From a virus: a stretch of 62,550 nucleotides of DNA. The translations under genes were made by a program, and so were the position numbers. Shown one piece after another: positions 3,330-42,641 of the stretch; the stretch's first letter is position 1, and each line of letters opens with the position of its first letter. The DNA is taken from the IMG/VR virus record IMGVR_UViG_3300042402_005680, positions 1 to 62,550 of that record; one strand, 5' to 3'. The notes below the pieces were generated by a model. That model saw nothing but the letters and a program-made list of their open reading frames with translations, did no database searches and had not been told where the DNA came from.

Positions 3330-4337
3330 TTAGTTACCTGAGATGACTTGAAGTTGTACGTCAGCGCGCATTTCATCACTGAGAGCTACGAGACCACGCT
3401 CAGAAAGGTATCCGTCTTTTGAGAGCGCAGCATCACTCATATACTCTTCAATGAACTCTTGCAGACCGGGAATAACTCCACGATGTGCGTTCTTGACGTA
3501 GAAGTAGAGCGGGCGAGAGATAGGATACGACCCATCACCGATGCTATCAAGGCTAGGCTCTACACCGTCGATGTTAACACCCTTGAGCTTGTCAAGGTTT
3601 TCATAGAGAAATGAGTAGCCAAAGATTCCCAGAGCGTTGACATCTGCTTCGAGACGCTGAACGATAAGATTGTCATTCTCGCCGGCTTCAACAAACGCAC
3701 CGTCCTGTCTCATGCCCGAACAGTTCTCAGCAATCCAGTCCTTATCAAATTTGCCTTCTACAACATGCGGCAACTTAGCACAACCGGCATGCATTGCAAG
3801 TTCTACAAAGGCGTCACGTGTTCCTGAAGTAGGAGGCGGACCATAAACTAAAATAGGATTTGCAGGCAAAGCTGCATTAATCTCGTTCCAAGTTTTATAT
3901 GGATTTGCAACCCACTCTCCGTTTACCGGAACTTGTGCTGCCAGTGCAAGATAAACTTCTTCAAGTGTAAGATCCCAGTTAAAGTCGTTTGCTCTAGAAC
4001 CACTAATTGACAGTCCGTCATATCCAATCAGCGCTTCTGAAATATCAGTTACACCGTTTTGTGTGCAGAGTTCGGTTTCTGAACTTTTGATTGCTCTGCT
4101 GGCTCCGGTAAGATCAGGGGTATCTTGGCCAATGCCTTTGCAAAACTCTTTAAAACCACCGCCAGTTCCAGTGGACTCGACGATAGGGGCTGTATATCCA
4201 AGATTAGAGAAGTTTTCTGCTACGGCTTGGGTATAAGGAAATACGGTGCTAGATCCAACGATACGAATCTGGTCTCTAGCGTATGCAGTGCCGGCAATCA
4301 TGATTGAGGCAGCTGTAAGGGCTACTAGTGTTTTCAT
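3330..4337 (-). CDS. pstS: Periplasmic phosphate-binding protein PstS
   Basis: 335 residues with signal peptide (first 20). The mature chain begins DQIRIVGSSTVFPYT, the phosphate-binding loop of the PstS family. It also has ESTGTGGGFKEFCKG, ASRAI, and GPPPTSGTRDAF, which is the second phosphate-binding loop (SGT-R). Full length for the family. It binds inorganic phosphate in the periplasm and would deliver it to the host PstCAB transporter. Phage-borne pstS genes are known from marine cyanophages, where host PhoB regulates them. Here a Pho-box-like element (4391-4410) precedes the gene. A terminator follows. Confidence 0.95.
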   Translation of the reverse strand: MKTLVALTAASIMIAGTAYARDQIRIVGSSTVFPYTQAVAENFSNLGYTAPIVESTGTGGGFKEFCKGIGQDTPDLTGASRAIKSSETELCTQNGVTDISEALIGYDGLSISGSRANDFNWDLTLEEVYLALAAQVPVNGEWVANPYKTWNEINAALPANPILVYGPPPTSGTRDAFVELAMHAGCAKLPHVVEGKFDKDWIAENCSGMRQDGAFVEAGENDNLIVQRLEADVNALGIFGYSFLYENLDKLKGVNIDGVEPSLDSIGDGSYPISRPLYFYVKNAHRGVIPGLQEFIEEYMSDAALSKDGYLSERGLVALSDEMRADVQLQVISGN

Positions 4338-6370: not shown

Positions 6371-6389
6371 TTTATTCCTCTAAGTGCCC

Positions 6390-6681
6390 CACTTCTGTTG
6401 CTAGGCAGGGGCCTCCCCCTTACATTAGGCTGCTAGAGCCTGTGCAGAAGGTGCAAAGTTATCGTTTGCAGTTGTTGGTTTCTTGCGGTTACAGTCGCTT
6501 GCGCACTGGCTCCTAGTTTCCTTTTTCACACCTGTCGATCCCATTTCGGCCCCATCAAAGATACACTGTCATTACCACCATGCTCCCCCGCTTTACAGGG
6601 GCTATGTCTGTTCAGTTTATCTATGGTGGAGCCGTCGGCTTCGAAGCCGAGTCCAGCCTGTGTCTGATTTACGTCATCAGA
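6390..6681 (-). ncRNA. ssrA: Transfer-messenger RNA, circularly permuted two-piece type
   Basis: Reading the minus strand, an acceptor piece comes first. It has a T-arm-like TCGGC-TTCGAA-GCCGA, then CGGCTCC and ACCA ending at 6624. After about 70 bases holding a CCCC/GGGG hairpin, the coding piece begins at 6553 with GGGGCCG, which pairs with CGGCTCC to rebuild a 7-bp acceptor stem. It continues with ATGGGATCGACAGG, the usual tmRNA 5' sequence. Near 6470-6428 it carries a tag frame encoding ANDNFAPSAQALAA followed by TAA. The acceptor-first order is that of alphaproteobacterial permuted ssrA. The product rescues stalled ribosomes and tags nascent chains for proteolysis. Ends are approximate. 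Confidence 0.9.
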
Positions 6682-7322
6682 GCTTGTACTTTTTCTTTTT
6701 GCAGTAATTCTGAGTGCATACCTTGATGTATTTCTCTGTGGCAATTAGCACACACGATTATACATTTGAGTAGCTCTTCCATTAAAATATGTTTTTCTGA
6801 GTGCCTCAAGTCAGATATTTTATACTCTTTTTTATCGGGGTCAAGATGATGAAAATCTAGTGCTGCTTTACATCTATCATACCCGCATATTTTACAAGAA
6901 TAGTAACCCAATATTTTTAAAACAATCTCATATTTTTTAGTAGCTTCATTAGTAGCTATGCACTGGCGACAATGTGCTCTGTAAAGTCTTTTTCCGTTAC
7001 GGCTATGACCCGCGGTATAAAAACTGTCAAGAGGGAGTTCTTTTTTACAAGTGTTGCAGGTTTTTAAAGTATCAACCTCTACACCTAATATAGTTTTACG
7101 ATACTGTTTCATAAAGTACGTGTTAAACGACGTAGCCACCGACTTATCAGACGGTTTTCCAAATATAGCTATAAGACCTCTACTAACTGCTTTACTGTCA
7201 ATTTTATCTATTAAATAAGTACTAGGAGAGACATCTGTTTGTAGCACTGCTTCTAATACTAATTCATAATTTTTTACATCTTTACGTTTAACTTTAGATA
7301 GCACAAATTCTTCATATGTCAT
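6669..7322 (-). CDS. HNH endonuclease with zinc-ribbon modules
   Basis: 217 residues. A first CNTCKKELPLDSF zinc knuckle and HCRQC pair are followed by CKICGYDRCKAALDFHHLDP and CANCHREIHQG, which together make an HNH/treble-clef nuclease. Its stop codon lies inside the 5' end of the tmRNA gene, so it looks like a mobile nuclease lodged against the tmRNA. It has its own promoter at 7340-7368. A/T content is higher than that of its neighbours. Confidence 0.88.
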   Translation of the reverse strand: MTYEEFVLSKVKRKDVKNYELVLEAVLQTDVSPSTYLIDKIDSKAVSRGLIAIFGKPSDKSVATSFNTYFMKQYRKTILGVEVDTLKTCNTCKKELPLDSFYTAGHSRNGKRLYRAHCRQCIATNEATKKYEIVLKILGYYSCKICGYDRCKAALDFHHLDPDKKEYKISDLRHSEKHILMEELLKCIIVCANCHREIHQGMHSELLQKEKVQALMT

Positions 7323-7730: not shown

Positions 7731-7912
7731 TAGACGCTCCTGTTAATTGTCACAATCTCGTGCTCTTCAATCGTTGTTATCACATGTCCGTAGTCACTCT
7801 CAAAGCTATGCTCTAATTCATCAATCATTTGATCGAGTTCATCAGGGTCGAGCCGATCTTCGGTTTCAAGCTTTAAGATGACGGTCATTGCGACTGTATG
7901 TTTATAACTCAT
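7730..7912 (-). CDS. Hypothetical protein, 60 aa
   Basis: Very acidic middle (EDRLDPDELDQMIDELEHSF) flanked by beta strands. Overlaps both neighbours by 1-4 bases. Family not recognised. Confidence 0.5.
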   Translation of the reverse strand: MSYKHTVAMTVILKLETEDRLDPDELDQMIDELEHSFESDYGHVITTIEEHEIVTINRSV

Positions 7913-9159
7913 TGTAATGTTCTCCTATGTTCTTCTAGTTCTTTCAGCAGCGTGCCGAGTCTCCAATTTTCGCTCATGTCTACAGGCTCTAGTGTAAAAA
8001 ACTCACTAGAGATAGCGTGCTTGATGCAGTTCCGGGTGAATGCCAGAGGATATCGAACGCCTGAAGCATTCATGCCCGTGTTGACTAAGTAGACATTACA
8101 ACGGTGCTGCTGTATTCGGTTCATCAGCAGGTTGCTATACTCGTGAATAGGACGCGGCATAAACGGCGAGCCATAGCACGGTGAGAACACCTTTTTGACT
8201 TCGCGCAATCCAGCTTCTGTGCCCGGCATTAGGCTGGTATAGCCGGTCTCGAACAGCAAGCGGATAGTCTCACCGCGCACCTGACTAATCGGAGGAAGGA
8301 TGCCCTCTGCATCCATTGCAAGAAAGAAGATGTTGTGAGGGCTTTTAAAGGCAAATGGTGTGTGCGCATACGCGTTTTCGACCATCTTCAGCGGATAGCT
8401 CAATCGAGCATTTGCCTCGTCGGGATTTTCAACTACAAGACAACCTTCGCTCCTAGCCAGTTCGACAGCATTGAAGATAGTCGGATGCGTCTCAGGTGAC
8501 AGCCCCTCGCTCTTGGCATAGCAACCGGACTCGACCATATGTATTCCATTGTCGCTCCAGTACACCTCGTCGTCGCTAATCAATTGAAAATCTGGGTCAG
8601 AGCTCAGAGTCGTCTTACCAGTTCCACTAAGACCGAACATCAGGTTGTTCTGTCCGTTATAGGTAAACGCACTACAGTGCATTGGTAAAGTGTTACGACG
8701 AGGCAGTTCGAAACCGAGGATGCCGAACACGCCCTTCTTGATTTCACCTAAGTAGGTTGTACCAGCAATCAGCATCTCTCGAGCATCAAGATGAACGTAG
8801 ATGCGTGGATGAGGAACTTCAACCTTCACACTATGAATGATTACCCAGTCTACCTGGTCGAAAGGAGCTGGGTAATCATAAGAAAGAACACTAAACATAT
8901 TACGAACAAACTGAGCATGAACGTCGCTGTCTGTCAATACTAGAAAAAGGATTCCACCGCTGTAGAAATATAGACGATGCGGGTATGCGTCTGAAATAGG
9001 AATACCCATCTTTAGACGGAGAGCAGTAAACTGCCCTTCTGTGCCGACCTTACAGTACTGCGGTCGATGAGTACAGAGCTCTCGCGTCGCCTCTCCAAAG
9101 AAGACTTTGTGTTCTGGACTACGACCAGAGGGAACGGTTGTTATGTTATAGTTAGGCAT
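7909..9159 (-). CDS. pckA: ATP-type phosphoenolpyruvate carboxykinase-like protein, short form
   Basis: 416 residues from the ATG at 9159, which has an AAGGAAC ribosome site; a GTG at 9177 is the alternative. The PckA signature elements are present in order: YLGEIKKGVFG (metal-binding Lys), LPMHCSAF (metal-binding His), P-loop GLSGTGKTTLS, and LISDDEVYW (metal-binding Asp). The ribosomal PEPCKs are about 530 residues; here roughly 110 N-terminal residues, which contribute to the substrate site, are missing or replaced. The family converts oxaloacetate and ATP to PEP, CO2 and ADP. Whether this short form keeps that activity is open. Confidence 0.85.
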   Translation of the reverse strand: MPNYNITTVPSGRSPEHKVFFGEATRELCTHRPQYCKVGTEGQFTALRLKMGIPISDAYPHRLYFYSGGILFLVLTDSDVHAQFVRNMFSVLSYDYPAPFDQVDWVIIHSVKVEVPHPRIYVHLDAREMLIAGTTYLGEIKKGVFGILGFELPRRNTLPMHCSAFTYNGQNNLMFGLSGTGKTTLSSDPDFQLISDDEVYWSDNGIHMVESGCYAKSEGLSPETHPTIFNAVELARSEGCLVVENPDEANARLSYPLKMVENAYAHTPFAFKSPHNIFFLAMDAEGILPPISQVRGETIRLLFETGYTSLMPGTEAGLREVKKVFSPCYGSPFMPRPIHEYSNLLMNRIQQHRCNVYLVNTGMNASGVRYPLAFTRNCIKHAISSEFFTLEPVDMSENWRLGTLLKELEEHRRTLQ

Positions 9160-9376
9160 TGCGATGTTCCTTCGCACGCTGTTCTAGCAGCGCAATAATT
9201 TCTTGTGCAAGAGTCCAGTTCGGAACTCCGCAGTATTCAGGAACCTTATAGCGATCTAGTGTCACTATAAGGTCCTGTAGTAGTTGGTGACGACTACGCA
9301 CGATTGTCTTGCCAACTATCGAGATACCGAATCTTTTGTTCTGTGGTCCAGCCTCGAAGATAGGAGTTATCTTCAT
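9152..9376 (-). CDS. Hypothetical protein, 74 aa
   Basis: ATG at 9376. Basic N-terminal half (IVGKTIVRSRHQLLQDLIV) and helical C terminus. Overlaps pckA by 8 bases and the previous gene by about 80 bases. No recognised motif. Confidence 0.45.
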   Translation of the reverse strand: MKITPIFEAGPQNKRFGISIVGKTIVRSRHQLLQDLIVTLDRYKVPEYCGVPNWTLAQEIIALLEQRAKEHRNA

Positions 9377-10887: not shown

Positions 10888-11982
10888 TTACTGAGGAATA
10901 TCACCCTGAATACCTTCTACATAAAAGTTCATGCTTAGTAGGTCACCATCAGGAGCAGTCACACCATCCTCTAGCCAGACCGAGCCATCTTGACGGCGAA
11001 TCGGACCTGTAAAGGGATGGTAGGTACCGGCAGCAATCGCATCACGTAGAGCTTCCGCTTCTGCCTTCACATCCGCAGGCACTACGTCTGTAATAACGCC
11101 AATCTCAACCTCGCCTTCACGAATTCCAGCCCAGGTGTCTGTAGAGGTCCAAGTTCCCTCAAGTACTTCTCCTACTCGCTTAACATAGTAAGGAGCCCAG
11201 TTATCGATGATAGAAGAAATGCGAGGGCTTGGAGCATAGTCAAGCATGTCAGATGCTTGTCCAAATCCTAGTACTGCTTCTCCAGCCTTAGCAGCTTCTG
11301 CAAGTGGAGCTGTAGAATCAGTATGTGAAGCAATAATGTCTACACCTTGGTCAATGAGTGCTCTAGCTGCATCAGCTTCTTTAGCAGGGTCAAACCAAGT
11401 GAATGCCCACACTACAGACAGCTCAACGTCTGGATTTACTCGCTTTGCGTGTAGGTAGTAGGCGTTAATGCCCATAACTACTTCGGGAATTGGGAAAGAA
11501 GCAATATATCCAATCTTATTAGTTTTGGTTAGTCGACCTGCCATAGTTCCTTGTACGGCACGCCCTTCATAGAATCGAGCATTGTAGATTGCAACATTCT
11601 CATGGTCACGCTTATAGCCGGTTGCGTGCTCAAAGCGTACATCTGGAAATTGAGCCGCTACAGTATTAGTAGCATCCATATATCCGAATGAAGTGGTAAA
11701 GATAATATTACAGCCTGACAAGGCCATTTGAGTTAAAACTCGTTCGGCATCAGCTCCTTCTGGAACACTCTCCTGCCACGCAATCTCAACTCGGTCACCA
11801 TACGCCTCTTTAACAGCAAGAGCGCCTTGGTGATGTTGGTAGGACCAACCTAAGTCTCCAATCGGACCTACATACACAAAACAGGCTTTAGCCTTTTCTA
11901 GGGGTTGTGCAGCAGCTGCACTAGTAAACATACCGAGACTCATAGCAGCCGCGGCCAATAGACTATTAGACAAAAATTTCAA
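10888..11982 (-). CDS. BMP-family (PnrA/Med-like) periplasmic solute-binding protein
   Basis: 364 residues. Signal peptide about 1-24, then KACFVYVGPIGDLGWSYQHH, the BMP-family N terminus (VGPxxDxGW). Further family features: DAERVLTQMALSGCNIIFTT, YFHATGY-like FEHATGYKR, GRLTKTNKIGYIASFPIPEV and ALIDQGVDIIASHTDS. These proteins bind nucleosides or related molecules in the periplasm and feed an ABC importer. No permease or ATPase genes follow, so like PstS it would work with a host transporter. The composition is more G+C-rich and bacterial-like than its neighbours, which suggests capture from a host. It is bracketed by terminators and may be expressed by read-through from the ncRNA region. 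Confidence 0.9.
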   Translation of the reverse strand: MKFLSNSLLAAAAMSLGMFTSAAAAQPLEKAKACFVYVGPIGDLGWSYQHHQGALAVKEAYGDRVEIAWQESVPEGADAERVLTQMALSGCNIIFTTSFGYMDATNTVAAQFPDVRFEHATGYKRDHENVAIYNARFYEGRAVQGTMAGRLTKTNKIGYIASFPIPEVVMGINAYYLHAKRVNPDVELSVVWAFTWFDPAKEADAARALIDQGVDIIASHTDSTAPLAEAAKAGEAVLGFGQASDMLDYAPSPRISSIIDNWAPYYVKRVGEVLEGTWTSTDTWAGIREGEVEIGVITDVVPADVKAEAEALRDAIAAGTYHPFTGPIRRQDGSVWLEDGVTAPDGDLLSMNFYVEGIQGDIPQ

Positions 11983-12011
11983 TGTGTGCTCCTAACTTAA
12001 AATGAAAAATT

Positions 12012-12041
12012 AAAGGCTAGAACATCGCTGCTCTAGCCTTT
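12012..12041 (-). terminator. Terminator between the ncRNA block and the BMP gene
   Basis: 10-bp stem AAAGGCTAGA/TCTAGCCTTT followed on the minus strand by AATTTTTCATTTT. A second small hairpin, GCAACT-loop-AGTTGC, lies at 12042-12057. This is the probable 3' end of the large noncoding transcript. Confidence 0.75.
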
Positions 12042-12042
12042 G

Positions 12043-13645
12043 CAACTGTTTAGTTGCTATTCACACTCTGAGTTCATCCTTTTACGTTGTGCAGCGCTAC
12101 ACATGAATATAACGAGTTATCGCAGAGTGCGCCTATTGGGTCCGCCCTATACCCACCGCTACGCAGAAGGCATTTGATTTCGTCTCGAGCCGACGGACAA
12201 CATCGAGCATAGACTGTTACTGCAGAGTTGATTCTCTGTCAGAGTGTGTGCCAACAGCCTAATTTGCACACTCCTATCACCCCCTATACGGGATGAGATA
12301 CGTCATTAAAATACAACGTGGTTAACCAACTGCTAGCGTGCAGCTGCCTTCTTAGGGCACGGAGGACCGACGACTTTTATTATAGAGAGTTTGGCTCCAC
12401 AGCTATCAGACTTCTCTCTAGGGGGTTAACCCAACTGTTTCCAGTTGCTGGACATATCCCTTAATTCCAGTGACTCTAAGGCTTGCCTAAATTGCAAGGA
12501 AAGGAGGTTTTTTGCTTAGAGTATTCTACAGGATTGCGTTGTTGTTTTAATAACCAATATTAAACATTTTTAGTTGCTGCAACAATCCTAATTGACAAGT
12601 GAAACCGGGGTATTGCGTATCTCTAGCTGCGGCGCCACACTAGAGAACTTTTGGCTTGTGCTTTCGTTACCTACTCACTTTCCCCACGCCAAGCACGCTA
12701 ACGACTTCACTAAAACTGTAGACAGGCTCTAAATGGGGTGTCTCCCTTGGTCTAAACCGTAAAGAGCTGTGAACGTCCTGTCTACAGATTAAGTGAAGTT
12801 GCCAGTTACTTCCTTCTGGCAGTATCTCTTTCGTGGATACAGGTTAGTGGGTTGGACGAGTGTTTACGGACATATTTTAAGGCTGTCTCACCTATCTCCC
12901 TACACAATCACACTAGTTGGGCAGGGTAGCGTAACTAGAACCCATCTCTGTTACGCATATTGCGCTACTCTTAAGTGCAGGATTCACACCTGCGTGGCCC
13001 CGTCTACCAGGGCATCTTAGTTTGTTTGTGCCTTGCACTTCTAGATCAACTTAAGGTAGTCACGGAGAGGTGTTTTGCTACGCGGGCACAACCTCAACAA
13101 AGCCTGCAGCAGTTGACGTTAAAACGAGTAATACCCCCGCATTAAGACAACTGTAACCTACGGAACACCAAGAACGGTCATCTCTTGCTTTAACGGCTCC
13201 ATACACCGCACAGTCATTAAATCCCTCGTACGTCAGACTGCGAATTGAGTACGAAGAAGTAGAGACACTGCTCAGACAGCTTCTACATATTTATCACCTA
13301 GCCCACACTCGGTTTCCCGCAAGGTCTAAGGCTGAGAAAAGCTAGCATCCGCACGCATAGATGCTACGACTACCATTTAGCGAGGTCTCAGTTTCACTGG
13401 AATCTATACACAGACGCAATTGCTTGCCGACGGGTTACTCCGAAGAAACCTATTGAACACTAGGTAGTTAAATACGGCAGATTGTTCAGGGCACAATCTG
13501 CAAGGCCCAACTTACTACCTCCCCGCAGGGTAGAGTTCAGTATATCAACTAGAAGAACTGAGTCCTCCTAGTGACGAGCGAACAGTGAAATAACCGTCTT
13601 AGACTTACAGCCTACGACCTGGGCTAGTCCGCTGTTTCGCTCTGT
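12043..13645 (-). ncRNA. Candidate giant structured noncoding RNA (GOLLD/ROOL-like setting), about 1.6 kb
   Basis: No convincing coding frame occurs on either strand, yet the DNA is dense in inverted repeats. A promoter (13653-13681) ends just before it and a terminator (12012-12041) closes it. Examples: a 5' stem GAGCGAA-ACAG with CTGTTCGCTC near 13640/13570; a perfect 9-bp hairpin at 13477-13501; and a nested long stem joining 12704-12711 with 12792-12799 and 12716-12726 with 12777-12787 (11 bp). Giant ornate phage RNAs such as GOLLD and ROOL lie next to tRNA genes as here, but I cannot confirm membership in a known family. It may be two RNAs. Confidence 0.7.
12531..12588 (-). ncRNA. Small-RNA family member A (inside the large noncoding block)
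   Basis: 58 bases closed by GGATTGT/GCAATCC (7 pairs, one wobble). Next to the stem comes TGCAGCAACTAA, the conserved strand shared with members B (25182-25247) and C (25418-25478). An internal hairpin GTTTAATA/TATTAAAAC follows. 21 bases here (12570-12590) match member B at 20 positions although the loci are 12.6 kb apart. Confidence 0.55.
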
Positions 13646-13652
13646 ATAATTT

Positions 13653-13681
13653 AATATACGCAATTTTTAAGGAACAAGCAA
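13653..13681 (-). promoter_or_regulatory. Promoter for the giant noncoding RNA
   Basis: Minus strand TTGCTT, 17 bases, TATATT, the recurrent class. Transcription would begin about 13645 and enter the structured block. Confidence 0.75.
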
Positions 13682-13835
13682 GCGTAAAATGGATTGGAGG
13701 GAGCACGTAGCAAGGATAAAAACTGCAATCAATTACTCGAGATACTCAATTGCAAGAGTCTTCATCCACCCATCTTCCTACATCGCGTAGGCTGTGTTAC
13801 TAGTTGCGCGACTAGTTATTACACCACTCCAAACT
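13682..13835 (-). other. Noncoding spacer with hairpins between tRNA-fMet and the giant RNA promoter
   Basis: No supported gene. Contains the hairpin ACTAGT-6-ACTAGT at 13799-13816 flanked by GTGT/ACAC, and a TTGCAATT...AATTGATTGCA stem. Probably the 3' part of the transcript from 14311-14339. Confidence 0.4.
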
Positions 13836-13912
13836 TGGTTGCGGAAGGGGAGGACTCGAACCTCCGATCTTCTGGTTATGAGCCAGACGAGATGCCGCTT
13901 CTCTACCCCGCA
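13836..13912 (-). tRNA. tRNA-fMet-like (CAT)
   Basis: Cloverleaf with anticodon loop CTCATAA and CCA encoded. TGCGGGGTAGAGAAGCGGCA at the 5' end and CTCGTCTGG before the anticodon resemble initiator tRNAs. It lies isolated from the tRNA cluster, inside the noncoding region. Confidence 0.85.
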
Positions 13913-13916
13913 AAAG

Positions 13917-14305
13917 TTCTACTCTCAGCTGCACTGCATCTACTATTAAGCCCGATACGCTGGCGCACTTAGTGCAGGTGAGAGTAGAAGCGGGAGATGG
14001 CCTCTAGGCCTAGGACCATCTCCCATGTGACTACAACTGGTAAGGTTGCTTTTTATAGACTTAATCACTCAGTCCCGCGAGAGTCAAACCACCCGCTCGG
14101 TTCTGTTGACATACTCTACAACAGCATAGAGTCACCTTGTTACTCTTGGTGCCAGAGATGTGATGAATTAGTAGCTACCAGGAACCATTCATCATATTTC
14201 GCATCAATACGCAGCCCCCAACCCGCCCGTATCGTGACCGCTCCATTTTCCGCCCAAACCGTCGAAACGGGCTAAACGTCTAACATGCGGCCTTCCTTAT
14301 TTCTG
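13917..14305 (-). ncRNA. Second candidate structured ncRNA, about 390 nt
   Basis: Starts right after the promoter at 14311-14339. Contains GCCC-GTTTCGACGGTTT-GGGC near its 5' end, the strong stem at 13992-14024, and a long 3' stem pairing CTACTCTCA-GC-TGCAC with GTGCA-GG-TGAGAGTAG (about 13920-13990). Open frames here are short and unlike proteins. The tRNA-fMet follows by a few bases, so it may be co-transcribed and released by processing. Confidence 0.55.
13992..14024 (-). terminator. Strong hairpin, terminator-like or structural
   Basis: 9-bp perfect stem GGGAGATGG/CCATCTCCC with a CTCTAGGCCTAGGA interior that can extend it. No clear T tract follows on the minus strand, so it may be an internal stem of the ncRNA. 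Confidence 0.4.
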
Positions 14306-14310
14306 TATTT

Positions 14311-14339
14311 AATATAACTCAAAAAATAGCAAGGGGCAA
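14311..14339 (-). promoter_or_regulatory. Promoter for the second noncoding RNA
   Basis: Minus strand TTGCCC, 17 bases, TATATT. No ribosome site or start codon follows. Confidence 0.75.
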
Positions 14340-14356
14340 GTGTAAAATTACTACAA

Positions 14357-14650
14357 TTACAGTATTACCCCCGCACGCATCGCATCTACTAGTCTCTGCG
14401 TTGCTGCCTCCGAAAGAACTCCGTTCTTCCATCGACAAGCCTTCCAACCGCGCGACCGAGTCCAGATAGCAAAGGCTCGACCACGAAGATAAGGAATAGC
14501 CTCTTCCTTAGTATAGAGGTCATAGTCGTATGGCAGATTCTTCATGGCACTAGCATATCCGCGCTGAAACGCCTCAACACGAGATAGACTTTGCGCAAGC
14601 CTTAGTGGTGATACAAAAACTCCGCCAGTATTGTGCTTACGTTCAATCAT
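14357..14650 (-). CDS. Hypothetical protein, 97 aa
   Basis: Ribosome site AGAGGAGACAAGC and promoter 14675-14703 directly upstream. Basic protein with aromatic patches (YLRGRAFAIWTRSRGWKA). Fits a small DNA- or RNA-binding protein, but the family is not recognised. Confidence 0.6.
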   Translation of the reverse strand: MIERKHNTGGVFVSPLRLAQSLSRVEAFQRGYASAMKNLPYDYDLYTKEEAIPYLRGRAFAIWTRSRGWKACRWKNGVLSEAATQRLVDAMRAGVIL

Positions 14651-31734: not shown

Positions 31735-33768
31735 ATGATACAAAAAATACTAACCAGCGCCATTTGGAGTATCGTTACTCTAGCATTAATGGTCGGAATA
31801 GCCTATCTGAATCCGTCATTTATTGAAAGCGTAAAACTCCGATATTTTGACACTCTAATTACGTCAACTCCCAAAATAGAAAATAATATCTATACCGTAA
31901 ACATAGATGAAGCAGCTATTGAACAGTACGGTCAGTGGCCTTGGTCAAGAGATATATATGCCAATATTATAGAAGAACTTTACGCTAGAGAAGCTGGTTT
32001 AGTAGTTTGGAATATATTAATGTCCGAATACGACAGAAGCGGTAAAGATTCTTACTTAGGGGATACTTTAGCGCAGTATCCGGTAATACTAAATATACTA
32101 GGTGCAGAAGAATCTAAAAATTCTGCAATAAATCCCGGGGCTGCAATAATTAATTCTGAGTACCAAGATTTAATACTCTCCTATCCAGGAATTATTGCAA
32201 ATATTCCTGAGTTAGAAAACCTAGCTTCGGGTAGTGGTATTGTTAATACGCTACCAGAAATTGACGGGGTCACACGTCGTGTGCCGATGGTAATCTCCAG
32301 TGGGGGCACTCTGTATCCTAACCTTACTCTAGAAACACTTCGAGTTCTTGCTGGAGACCCAAGTTTTCAGATTAAGCTTTCTCCCCTTGGAGTTGACCGA
32401 CTGCGTATTCCTCAGTTTGGAGAAATACCAACTGACGAACTCGGACGCGTATGGGTCGATTGGAGTCAAAGTAGTAAAAGTGTTTCTCTCACTAATCTTC
32501 CTGATAGTTTTGGAGGTGCGATAGTTTATATAGCGCCCACTGCAGCAGGATTAAATAATCCTATTGCAACTGCTGCTGGAGGTGTTTGGCCTCATGAATT
32601 GCAGGCTGCACTTCTAGGTACAGTTTTTAATCAGAGTAATATTGAGCGTCCCGCTTGGGCATCAGGCGCAGAACTAATTTCATTAGTACTCGGGGGTATT
32701 CTCTTAATCTTCTCAGCACGCTGGACCTATTTAGGATTAGGAGTTTTTGTACTACTGCTTGCTAGCACTGTAGGCGGTAGCTGGTATGTTTTTGTGGAAT
32801 ATAAGTGGCTACTCGATGGTGTTACGCTTACGGCATCGTTCATTCTAATCGGTCTTGTACGATATGCTGTGAAGTTTATTTCAGAGTACCTACAAAAGTT
32901 AAAAATTAAAAAGCAGTTTGGCGGATATGTCTCTCCGCTTGTCATTGAACAGTTACAAAAAAACCCCGAGCTTGTCAGCCGGGGCATTAAACGCGATGTT
33001 TCTATTGTAATGACAGACTTACGAGGTTTTACACCACTAGGAGAGTCATATGGGGATGACGTCCACGGTCTCACACAGATTATGAATGACTATATGACTG
33101 CTATTTCACAACCTGTACTTGACGATGGAGGCACTATTATCAAGTATATTGGCGATGCAACTCTACACATTCATGGAGCGCCTCTCACTGATGAGCATCA
33201 TGCAAAGCACGCCGTTGCAACTACGTTGCGAATGATTAAAGCGGTCGAAGAGTTTAACACTGAGCTAGATGCTATCGGTAAACCACGAGTAGCAATGGGA
33301 GCAGGTATCAATACTGGCCCTGCTGTTATTGGCAATATCGGTTCTAAGACTCGATTTGGGTATGATATACTAGGAGATAGTGTTTCTACCGCGGCTCGAT
33401 TAGAGGGTCAGAGCAAGCCCTACGGAGTCAAGATTGTTATTGGTGAGAGCACCGCAGAGCTAGTACGAGATGACTATATCTTATTAGAACTCGATAAAAT
33501 TGCGGTAAAAGGCAAGACAATTGGACTACGCATGTATACCGTAGTTGCTGAAGGTAGTCCTGAAGCTGTTCAAAAGCACGAAGAGATGTTACAGCTCTAT
33601 CGCGCACGTGAGTTTAGCAAAGCTAGTGTCGCGTGTGTGCTGCTCAAAAATGAGTTTGGCGGTGAAATGCGTGACTACTATAAAATGTGGATGTCTCGCT
33701 GTGAAGAAATGCGAAACTCTAGTCTTCCCGAAGACTGGGATGGAATTTATCGAGCCACTTCTAAATAG
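31735..33768 (+). CDS. CHASE2-domain class III adenylate cyclase, membrane-bound
   Basis: 677 residues. A membrane helix at 8-26, then an extracytoplasmic CHASE2 sensor (about 30-310, with NIYTVNIDEAAIEQYGQWPW), then three membrane helices (about 312-385), then a class III cyclase domain from about 420. Catalytic metal residues are in VMTDLRGFTPLG and YIGDATLHIHG; substrate and transition-state segments in GYDILGDSVSTAARLEGQSK. The C-terminal helical part has MLQLYRAREFSKA. Full-length for the chromosomal family. It makes cAMP (or cGMP) in response to a periplasmic signal. The stop is followed directly by a convergent tRNA gene. Confidence 0.92.
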   Translation: MIQKILTSAIWSIVTLALMVGIAYLNPSFIESVKLRYFDTLITSTPKIENNIYTVNIDEAAIEQYGQWPWSRDIYANIIEELYAREAGLVVWNILMSEYDRSGKDSYLGDTLAQYPVILNILGAEESKNSAINPGAAIINSEYQDLILSYPGIIANIPELENLASGSGIVNTLPEIDGVTRRVPMVISSGGTLYPNLTLETLRVLAGDPSFQIKLSPLGVDRLRIPQFGEIPTDELGRVWVDWSQSSKSVSLTNLPDSFGGAIVYIAPTAAGLNNPIATAAGGVWPHELQAALLGTVFNQSNIERPAWASGAELISLVLGGILLIFSARWTYLGLGVFVLLLASTVGGSWYVFVEYKWLLDGVTLTASFILIGLVRYAVKFISEYLQKLKIKKQFGGYVSPLVIEQLQKNPELVSRGIKRDVSIVMTDLRGFTPLGESYGDDVHGLTQIMNDYMTAISQPVLDDGGTIIKYIGDATLHIHGAPLTDEHHAKHAVATTLRMIKAVEEFNTELDAIGKPRVAMGAGINTGPAVIGNIGSKTRFGYDILGDSVSTAARLEGQSKPYGVKIVIGESTAELVRDDYILLELDKIAVKGKTIGLRMYTVVAEGSPEAVQKHEEMLQLYRAREFSKASVACVLLKNEFGGEMRDYYKMWMSRCEEMRNSSLPEDWDGIYRATSK

Positions 33769-42278: not shown

Positions 42279-42641
42279 TTAACCAGCGCTACGAGTGATG
42301 AAGTTGACTCGAACCTTCTTAGGGTTGAAGTACTTACGAATGAGATCCTCTGCAATCTTCACATCAACAGTCTTACAAGAGAAGATGTCAATGTAGGCAT
42401 CACCATTTATATCGACAAAGTGGGCAGTAATGCTGCTAGTCTCAATCAACTGAGTAGCGGTAATACCAGCTTTATCCGGCTCGTGAGTAGCAAAGTGTTG
42501 GATTTGCGGCTCTCCGAATGCTATCATGTCGATAGCCGGGACGAGTTCTTTAATAAAATTATAAACGTTTTCTTCACTTGTGACTTTTTCGATATCGCAA
42601 GCAGCGCAATCAAACATTGCGTGGTATCCCCAGTATGACAT
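42279..42641 (-). CDS. speD: S-adenosylmethionine decarboxylase-like protein, 120 aa
   Basis: Begins YWGYHAMFDCAACD, as in short SpeD proteins. The region LIETSSITAHFVDINGDAYI followed by DIFSCKTVDVKIAEDLIRKYF matches the self-cleaving site (E-S-x-x-x-x-H) and the C-terminal strand-helix. Here the Ser of the usual ES is second after a Thr (ETSS). Active SpeD makes decarboxylated SAM for spermidine. speD-like genes are known in marine phages. Starts next to tRNA-Trp. Confidence 0.78.
   Translation of the reverse strand: MSYWGYHAMFDCAACDIEKVTSEENVYNFIKELVPAIDMIAFGEPQIQHFATHEPDKAGITATQLIETSSITAHFVDINGDAYIDIFSCKTVDVKIAEDLIRKYFNPKKVRVNFITRSAG

Follow-up and report, generated by a model that had tools for sequence, protein, structure and literature searches.

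Results

The window, by which we mean the whole 62,550-nucleotide stretch of IMG/VR virus record IMGVR_UViG_3300042402_005680, holds about 1.6 kb for which an earlier note, made from the sequence letters, had proposed a giant structured noncoding RNA. The features of the locus are given below with their counterparts in two relatives from IMG/VR, G001 (L118 and L161) and G002 (L127 and L160), which were found via the Ro-like gene; R1 is a covariance model built from 13 copies of module A, the window copy among them.

12005–13645, minus strand: composite noncoding RNA gene of about 1640 nt; ORF-free, with motifs for a promoter and a terminator; fold z −6.0
13841–13912, minus strand: tRNA-Met(CAT), the upstream neighbour gene; about 90% identical tRNA in G001 and G002
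13653–13681, minus strand: promoter motif TTGCTT-17-TATATT, aligning with other sites of the contig
13572–13642, minus strand: 5' terminal hairpin GAGCGAA..UUCGCUC, fold z −3.4
13474–13548, minus strand: module C, homologous to the ~200-nt RNA of G001 (L161 1930–2136)
12958–13060, minus strand: TLS, a class-II-tRNA-like domain, homologous to L118 1978–2085
12826–12957, minus strand: extension on the 3' side of the TLS, weakly conserved (blastn to L118 up to 2220, 59% identity)
12704–12799, minus strand: hairpin of nested 8-bp and 11-bp perfect stems, z −5.0
12525–12594, minus strand: module A, Ro-associated element with 7-bp stem, CAGCAA and CCTGT; R1 54.9 bits, E 4e-14
12061–12132, minus strand: module B, homologous to L160 2560–2632
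12012–12041, minus strand: intrinsic terminator, stem plus AATTTTT, found by scan
23739–25178, minus strand: Ro60-like protein gene (DUF2828 and DUF7788, phrog_850)
25176–25253, minus strand: second copy of module A in the leader of the Ro-like gene; R1 18.3 bits, E 0.18, a weak score

The statement that the 1.6 kb lacks a credible gene held up. The longest ORF in the six frames has 75 codons, a length reached by 57% of shuffled sequences (shuffled median 78.5); none of the alternative stop-codon readings tried across the region opens a frame, the ORFs of the region give no match to PHROG at E≤1, and codon scoring leaves 11983–14356 empty apart from the tRNA-Met. A hidden or recoded gene is thus ruled out by ORF length, stop reassignment and the PHROG search. 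The same DNA is present, identical, in two further IMG/VR contigs, and the region is therefore not a one-off assembly error.

The sense strand is the minus strand. The terminator claimed in the note was found at 12041–12012, and a promoter motif lies where a strong promoter had been proposed, at 13681–13653; its strength, however, found no support. The −35 box agrees with sigma-70 at only three of six positions, which is why the consensus scan missed it. The motif can be aligned with comparable sites at 2760, 14704 and 15145(−), with additional look-alikes at 14345 and 16165, and this repetition across the contig makes it look like a member of a phage promoter family. Similar promoters precede both noncoding RNAs of G001, the ~200-nt RNA of which also closes with a similar terminator. 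A long structured noncoding RNA gene with promoter and terminator motifs of its own, beside a Met tRNA, is thus supported. Bacterial initiator tRNAs usually have a C1-A72 mismatch, and the neighbouring gene, called an initiator tRNA in the note, is a tRNA-Met(CAT) of initiator-like sequence, yet with a U at position 1 and hence a U1-A72 pair, as in G001 and G002. ARAGORN and Rfam call no tRNA within the RNA itself, the tRNA-Met outside it being the only one. Further upstream, 13913–14300 on the minus strand is a second ORF-free, transcript-like stretch, which has the promoter motif at 14345 and runs into the tRNA-Met; no relatives were found for its 5' part.

Folded as a whole, the RNA departs from shuffled sequences with a z of −6.0 on the minus strand and −2.1 on the plus strand; because two coding controls reach −4.3 and −1.9, folding energy alone is supportive, not decisive, and 400-nt windows taken from the middle are indistinguishable from shuffles. 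The many perfect stems are real: seven arms reach at least 8 bp, where 2.9 were expected (3.7% of shuffles), and one reaches 11 bp, where the expectation is 0.04 and 4% of shuffles contain such an arm. Stems of 11 bp and 8 bp do enclose 12704–12799 as a nested pair, and this hairpin alone gives a z of −5.0; no relative of it was found.

Over the whole window, an Rfam cmscan at gathering thresholds returned only tRNAs and a circularly permuted tmRNA; the latter (6383–6730, minus strand; RF04321 104 bits, alpha_tmRNA 71 bits) was not called by ARAGORN and points to an alphaproteobacterial-type host or origin. Within 11950–14400, no giant-RNA family appeared at E≤10. The ROOL model (RF03087) has no match at E≤10, and likewise none in control genomes, and the sole match to the GOLLD model (RF02032, for the conserved 3' region), of 6.3 bits at 42553, lies outside the region and is at chance level. 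For GOLLD, ROOL and all other Rfam families the region thus has no match over threshold.

Among GenBank phages, no DNA relatives of the region were found. The IMG/VR relative G001 keeps the synteny on either side, with ordered counterparts of the window genes at 14.7–15.7 kb and 9.3–10.6 kb. Between these flanks come a promoter-to-terminator RNA of ~600 nt, a tRNA array and the Ro-like gene, then further tRNAs, the same tRNA-Met among them, and a second promoter-to-terminator RNA, of ~200 nt. The counterpart in G002 is a ~200-nt element within a tRNA array; the same array holds a tRNA with a CTA anticodon (L127 15343–15420), possibly an amber suppressor. The window RNA consists of parts of both G001 RNAs and elements of the G002 tRNA array: modules C, TLS, A and B have homologs in the two relatives and together cover about 320 of 1640 nt, while the full 1.6 kb was found in neither and about 1300 nt are without a confirmed homolog. 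The relatives, in other words, carry the modules as separate short RNAs, and there is no one conserved giant RNA. The note had named conserved codons, or a lack of covariation, as signs against its proposal: we saw no conserved codons, and covariation is clear for the modules only, not for the 1.6-kb whole.

These comparisons bear on the nature of the transcript. A single giant, ornate RNA of the GOLLD or ROOL kind, forming a large RNA-only assembly, would agree with the length, the tRNA neighbourhood, the phage origin and the strand-specific folding excess, and one GOLLD has been described downstream of a Met-tRNA and ROOL near tRNA islands (PMC12286853); we nevertheless consider it very unlikely, given that the GOLLD, ROOL and other Rfam models give no match, the middle parts equal shuffles and the whole RNA is conserved in no relative. 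The kinship with these RNAs suggested in the note was accordingly dropped. A second alternative is a precursor that is cut like a tRNA operon and of which only the small products, such as the module A RNA and the tRNA-like RNA, function. The modules are solitary in the relatives, have closing stems of their own and lie between tRNA genes or in tandem, and both G001 RNAs are short; against this, the window modules share one promoter and one terminator, and the RNA has no internal tRNA whose processing could free them. We regard such a precursor as possible, with the balance of probability clearly against it.

When IMG/VR was scanned with exact patterns for the TLS and modules C and B, the matches came from this phage, G001 or G002 (for module C, this phage and G001), apart from L258, where the match lies inside a gene and was rejected. 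The TLS pattern was absent from a collection of bacterial and archaeal genome contigs, and none of the 79 loci reached via the neighbouring kinase gene had a confident TLS match or a module A. The gene at 10888–11982 (minus strand) encodes a Bmp/PnrA-like periplasmic-type substrate-binding protein with relatives of about 52% identity in many IMG/VR contigs, and in the relatives reached through this gene no such RNA lies next to it. A second such protein, PBP_like_2, is encoded at 3330–4337 (minus strand). The phage contig also carries an ATP-type phosphoenolpyruvate carboxykinase (7909–9177, minus strand; PF01293, E 4e-87) and a protein with CHASE2 and adenylate/guanylate cyclase domains (31735–33768, plus strand; 139 relatives confirmed in IMG/VR contigs).

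Module C matches the first part of G001's ~200-nt promoter-to-terminator RNA at 72% identity. The TLS has a long closing stem, an extra arm and a T-arm-like GCAGG/CCTGC hairpin, and lacks a CCA; between the window and G001, all 17 pairs are kept, six of them changed on both sides and none broken, and about 130 nt past the domain align weakly. The TLS model, R2, matches at E<0.1 only the window, the G001 copy and, as third-best and weakly (24.6 bits, E 0.085), a tRNA-Ser-like tRNA of L128, which suggests, again weakly, that the TLS descends from a class II tRNA. Of the 15 module B pairs, all are kept in G002 and five are changed on both sides. In that relative (L160), an RNA of the module A type (z −6.3), with the stem of module A, a D-like hairpin and a T arm, has module B as the end of its acceptor-like arm, so that the two modules are combined in a single molecule elsewhere.

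It could be argued that the locus is a decaying tRNA island, its modules being relics without function as a unit, left after the tRNA genes moved to 33–44 kb. The syntenic place in G001 does hold tRNA arrays and the Ro gene, and the TLS looks like a tRNA stripped of its anticodon arm and CCA. The double changes in the TLS without a broken pair, with modules A and B behaving likewise, and the intact promoter and terminator motifs nevertheless make this explanation unlikely.

That the region contains a small-RNA element, as the note had said, is also supported. Module A was discovered by comparing the window with G001 and G002, followed by a pattern search. Its stem of 7 bp is followed by CAGCAA and a variable middle part, with CCTGT at and after the 3' arm. 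Folded alone, the window copy does no better than shuffles. R1 gives 93 matches at E≤1, which come from 35 sources. The family occurs in phages of Vibrio, Cronobacter, Listeria, E. coli, Aeromonas, Stenotrophomonas and Synechococcus. Across 77 distinct sequences 98.6% of the stem positions are paired, a figure that leans upward because the alignment was fitted to the model, against 28–45% when the partner is slid by 1–3 columns in the same alignment; all seven pairs show double changes somewhere in the family. Some module-A-type RNAs contain tRNA-like inserts in permuted order, the T arm before the D arm (L160 2490–2702, L128 9369–9490 and L143 1633–1764). A tRNA-like module occurs in long family members and separately as the TLS of the window, and is absent within the window's module A.

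The family keeps company with genes for Ro60-like proteins. For the protein of the window, a profile search against PDB sequences returned no Ro60, whereas fold comparison did: the four best PDB matches of its AlphaFold model (mean pLDDT 75) are Ro60 structures, including 2i91, 1yvr and 1yvp (E 3e-6 to 3e-5). At 26 bits or more, a threshold set after the scores had been seen, R1 matches 13 of 14 held-out Ro-encoding records (nine cultured phages and G012, G019, G021, G039 and G040) and none of 21 Ro-less records, some of the records being related to each other (Fisher p 9e-9). The sole Ro-encoding record below the threshold is Mycobacterium phage Nicholas (17.9 bits), and the best score among the Ro-less records is 23.7. 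Tandem arrays of module A often stand directly before the Ro-like gene, and in Listeria phage LP-124 a module A lies just before it; in Serratia phage BF, the matches (best 26.7) are about 200 kb from its own Ro gene. The leader copy in the window shares its position with many relatives, and suggests feedback on the translation of the Ro gene. In Listeria phage CKA15, RNA-seq revealed abundant noncoding RNA within the 2 kb that precede the Ro-like gene; the authors of that study propose that it may consist of Y RNAs (PMC12282133).

Discussion

We lean slightly towards a modular, Y-RNA-like transcript that either links the phage's Ro-like protein with further RNA domains or is cleaved into several small RNAs. 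One minus-strand RNA gene would be transcribed as a single RNA from the putative phage promoter, near 13646, to the terminator at 12012, and the resulting transcript of about 1640 nt would string together elements that the relatives keep separately in or beside their tRNA islands. Module A would serve as the Y-RNA-like recognition element, most likely bound, judging by its association, by the phage Ro60-like protein; the TLS, modules B and C and the 12704–12799 hairpin would then be effector or substrate domains delivered to that protein. The tethering is modelled on bacterial Y RNAs, which join Rsr to PNPase (summarised in PMC12282133). Alternatively, cleavage may free the domains as separate small RNAs, and in either case an effect on host or phage RNA may follow.

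In a bolder version, the whole is a single giant Ro ribonucleoprotein scaffold, the CAGCAA element is a general phage-Ro element, and the Class I RNAs of Dictyostelium are its unrecognised relative; we consider this combination improbable. If there is such a scaffold, one transcript would unite a Ro-binding element, a tRNA mimic and other effector domains. For phage Ro60-like proteins at large, which are encoded by hundreds of cultured phages (681 records), the RNA partners are mostly unnamed, and the module A family provides a concrete, covarying candidate partner, here built into a predicted 1.6-kb transcript. As the family is present in cultured phages, its binding to Ro is testable in laboratory phages.

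Among known systems, GOLLD and ROOL are, like the window RNA, phage-encoded, noncoding, large and near tRNAs; the window RNA differs from them in giving no match to a sequence or structure model, in having separable modules, and in size: it spans 1.6 kb, whereas one ROOL measures 659 nt and many GOLLD exceed 800 nt (PMC12286853). The TLS shares its closing stem, extra arm and T-arm-like hairpin with class II tRNAs of the Ser/Leu type, but has neither CCA nor anticodon arm, and its T loop is UGUGAAU.

The Class I RNAs of Dictyostelium (RF01414) resemble module A in their short terminal stem, the conserved motif beside the 5' arm and the variable middle. The best sub-threshold matches to RF01414 sit on module A in most of the Ro-encoding phages tested, among them W02, W04, W05, W09, G020 and G040, with 21.6 bits at 12529–12588 in the window, below gathering; in 20 records, none passed the cut-off (best 33.4 against 41.5 bits). 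Class I RNAs are reported to be unique to dictyostelids, with none found outside (PMC7919456). Because control genomes match weakly too, we treat the likeness as a lead only, common descent being unproven.

A further comparison is with Y RNAs. In module A we saw no GGUCCGA-type site like the one that Ro60 has on vertebrate Y RNAs (PMC11277228). Against the model of the bacterial YrlA RNAs (RF02553), the region has no match, the best of the window being 23.5 bits, below gathering, at a tRNA junction, and the window element has a CAGCAA motif, unlike YrlA, and accounts for little of the predicted 1.6-kb transcript. That model thus gives no support to reading module A as a plain YrlA RNA. To our knowledge, the predicted transcript far exceeds any known Y RNA in size. 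Chen 2014 reportedly defined bacterial and mycobacteriophage Y RNAs, and its phage RNAs may include the module A family. Like the bacterial Y RNAs, however, the members of this family are small stem-closed RNAs beside a Ro60-like gene: the genetic link to a Ro60/Rsr-like gene by which bacterial Y RNAs are judged is present. The terminal stem of module A is conserved and covarying, and is a candidate for the Ro-binding role. In L098, L132 and L137, the YrlA model has matches below threshold that are adjacent to arrays of module A or fall inside them, and the long members of the family carry permuted-tRNA-like inserts, an arrangement also seen in YrlA RNAs.
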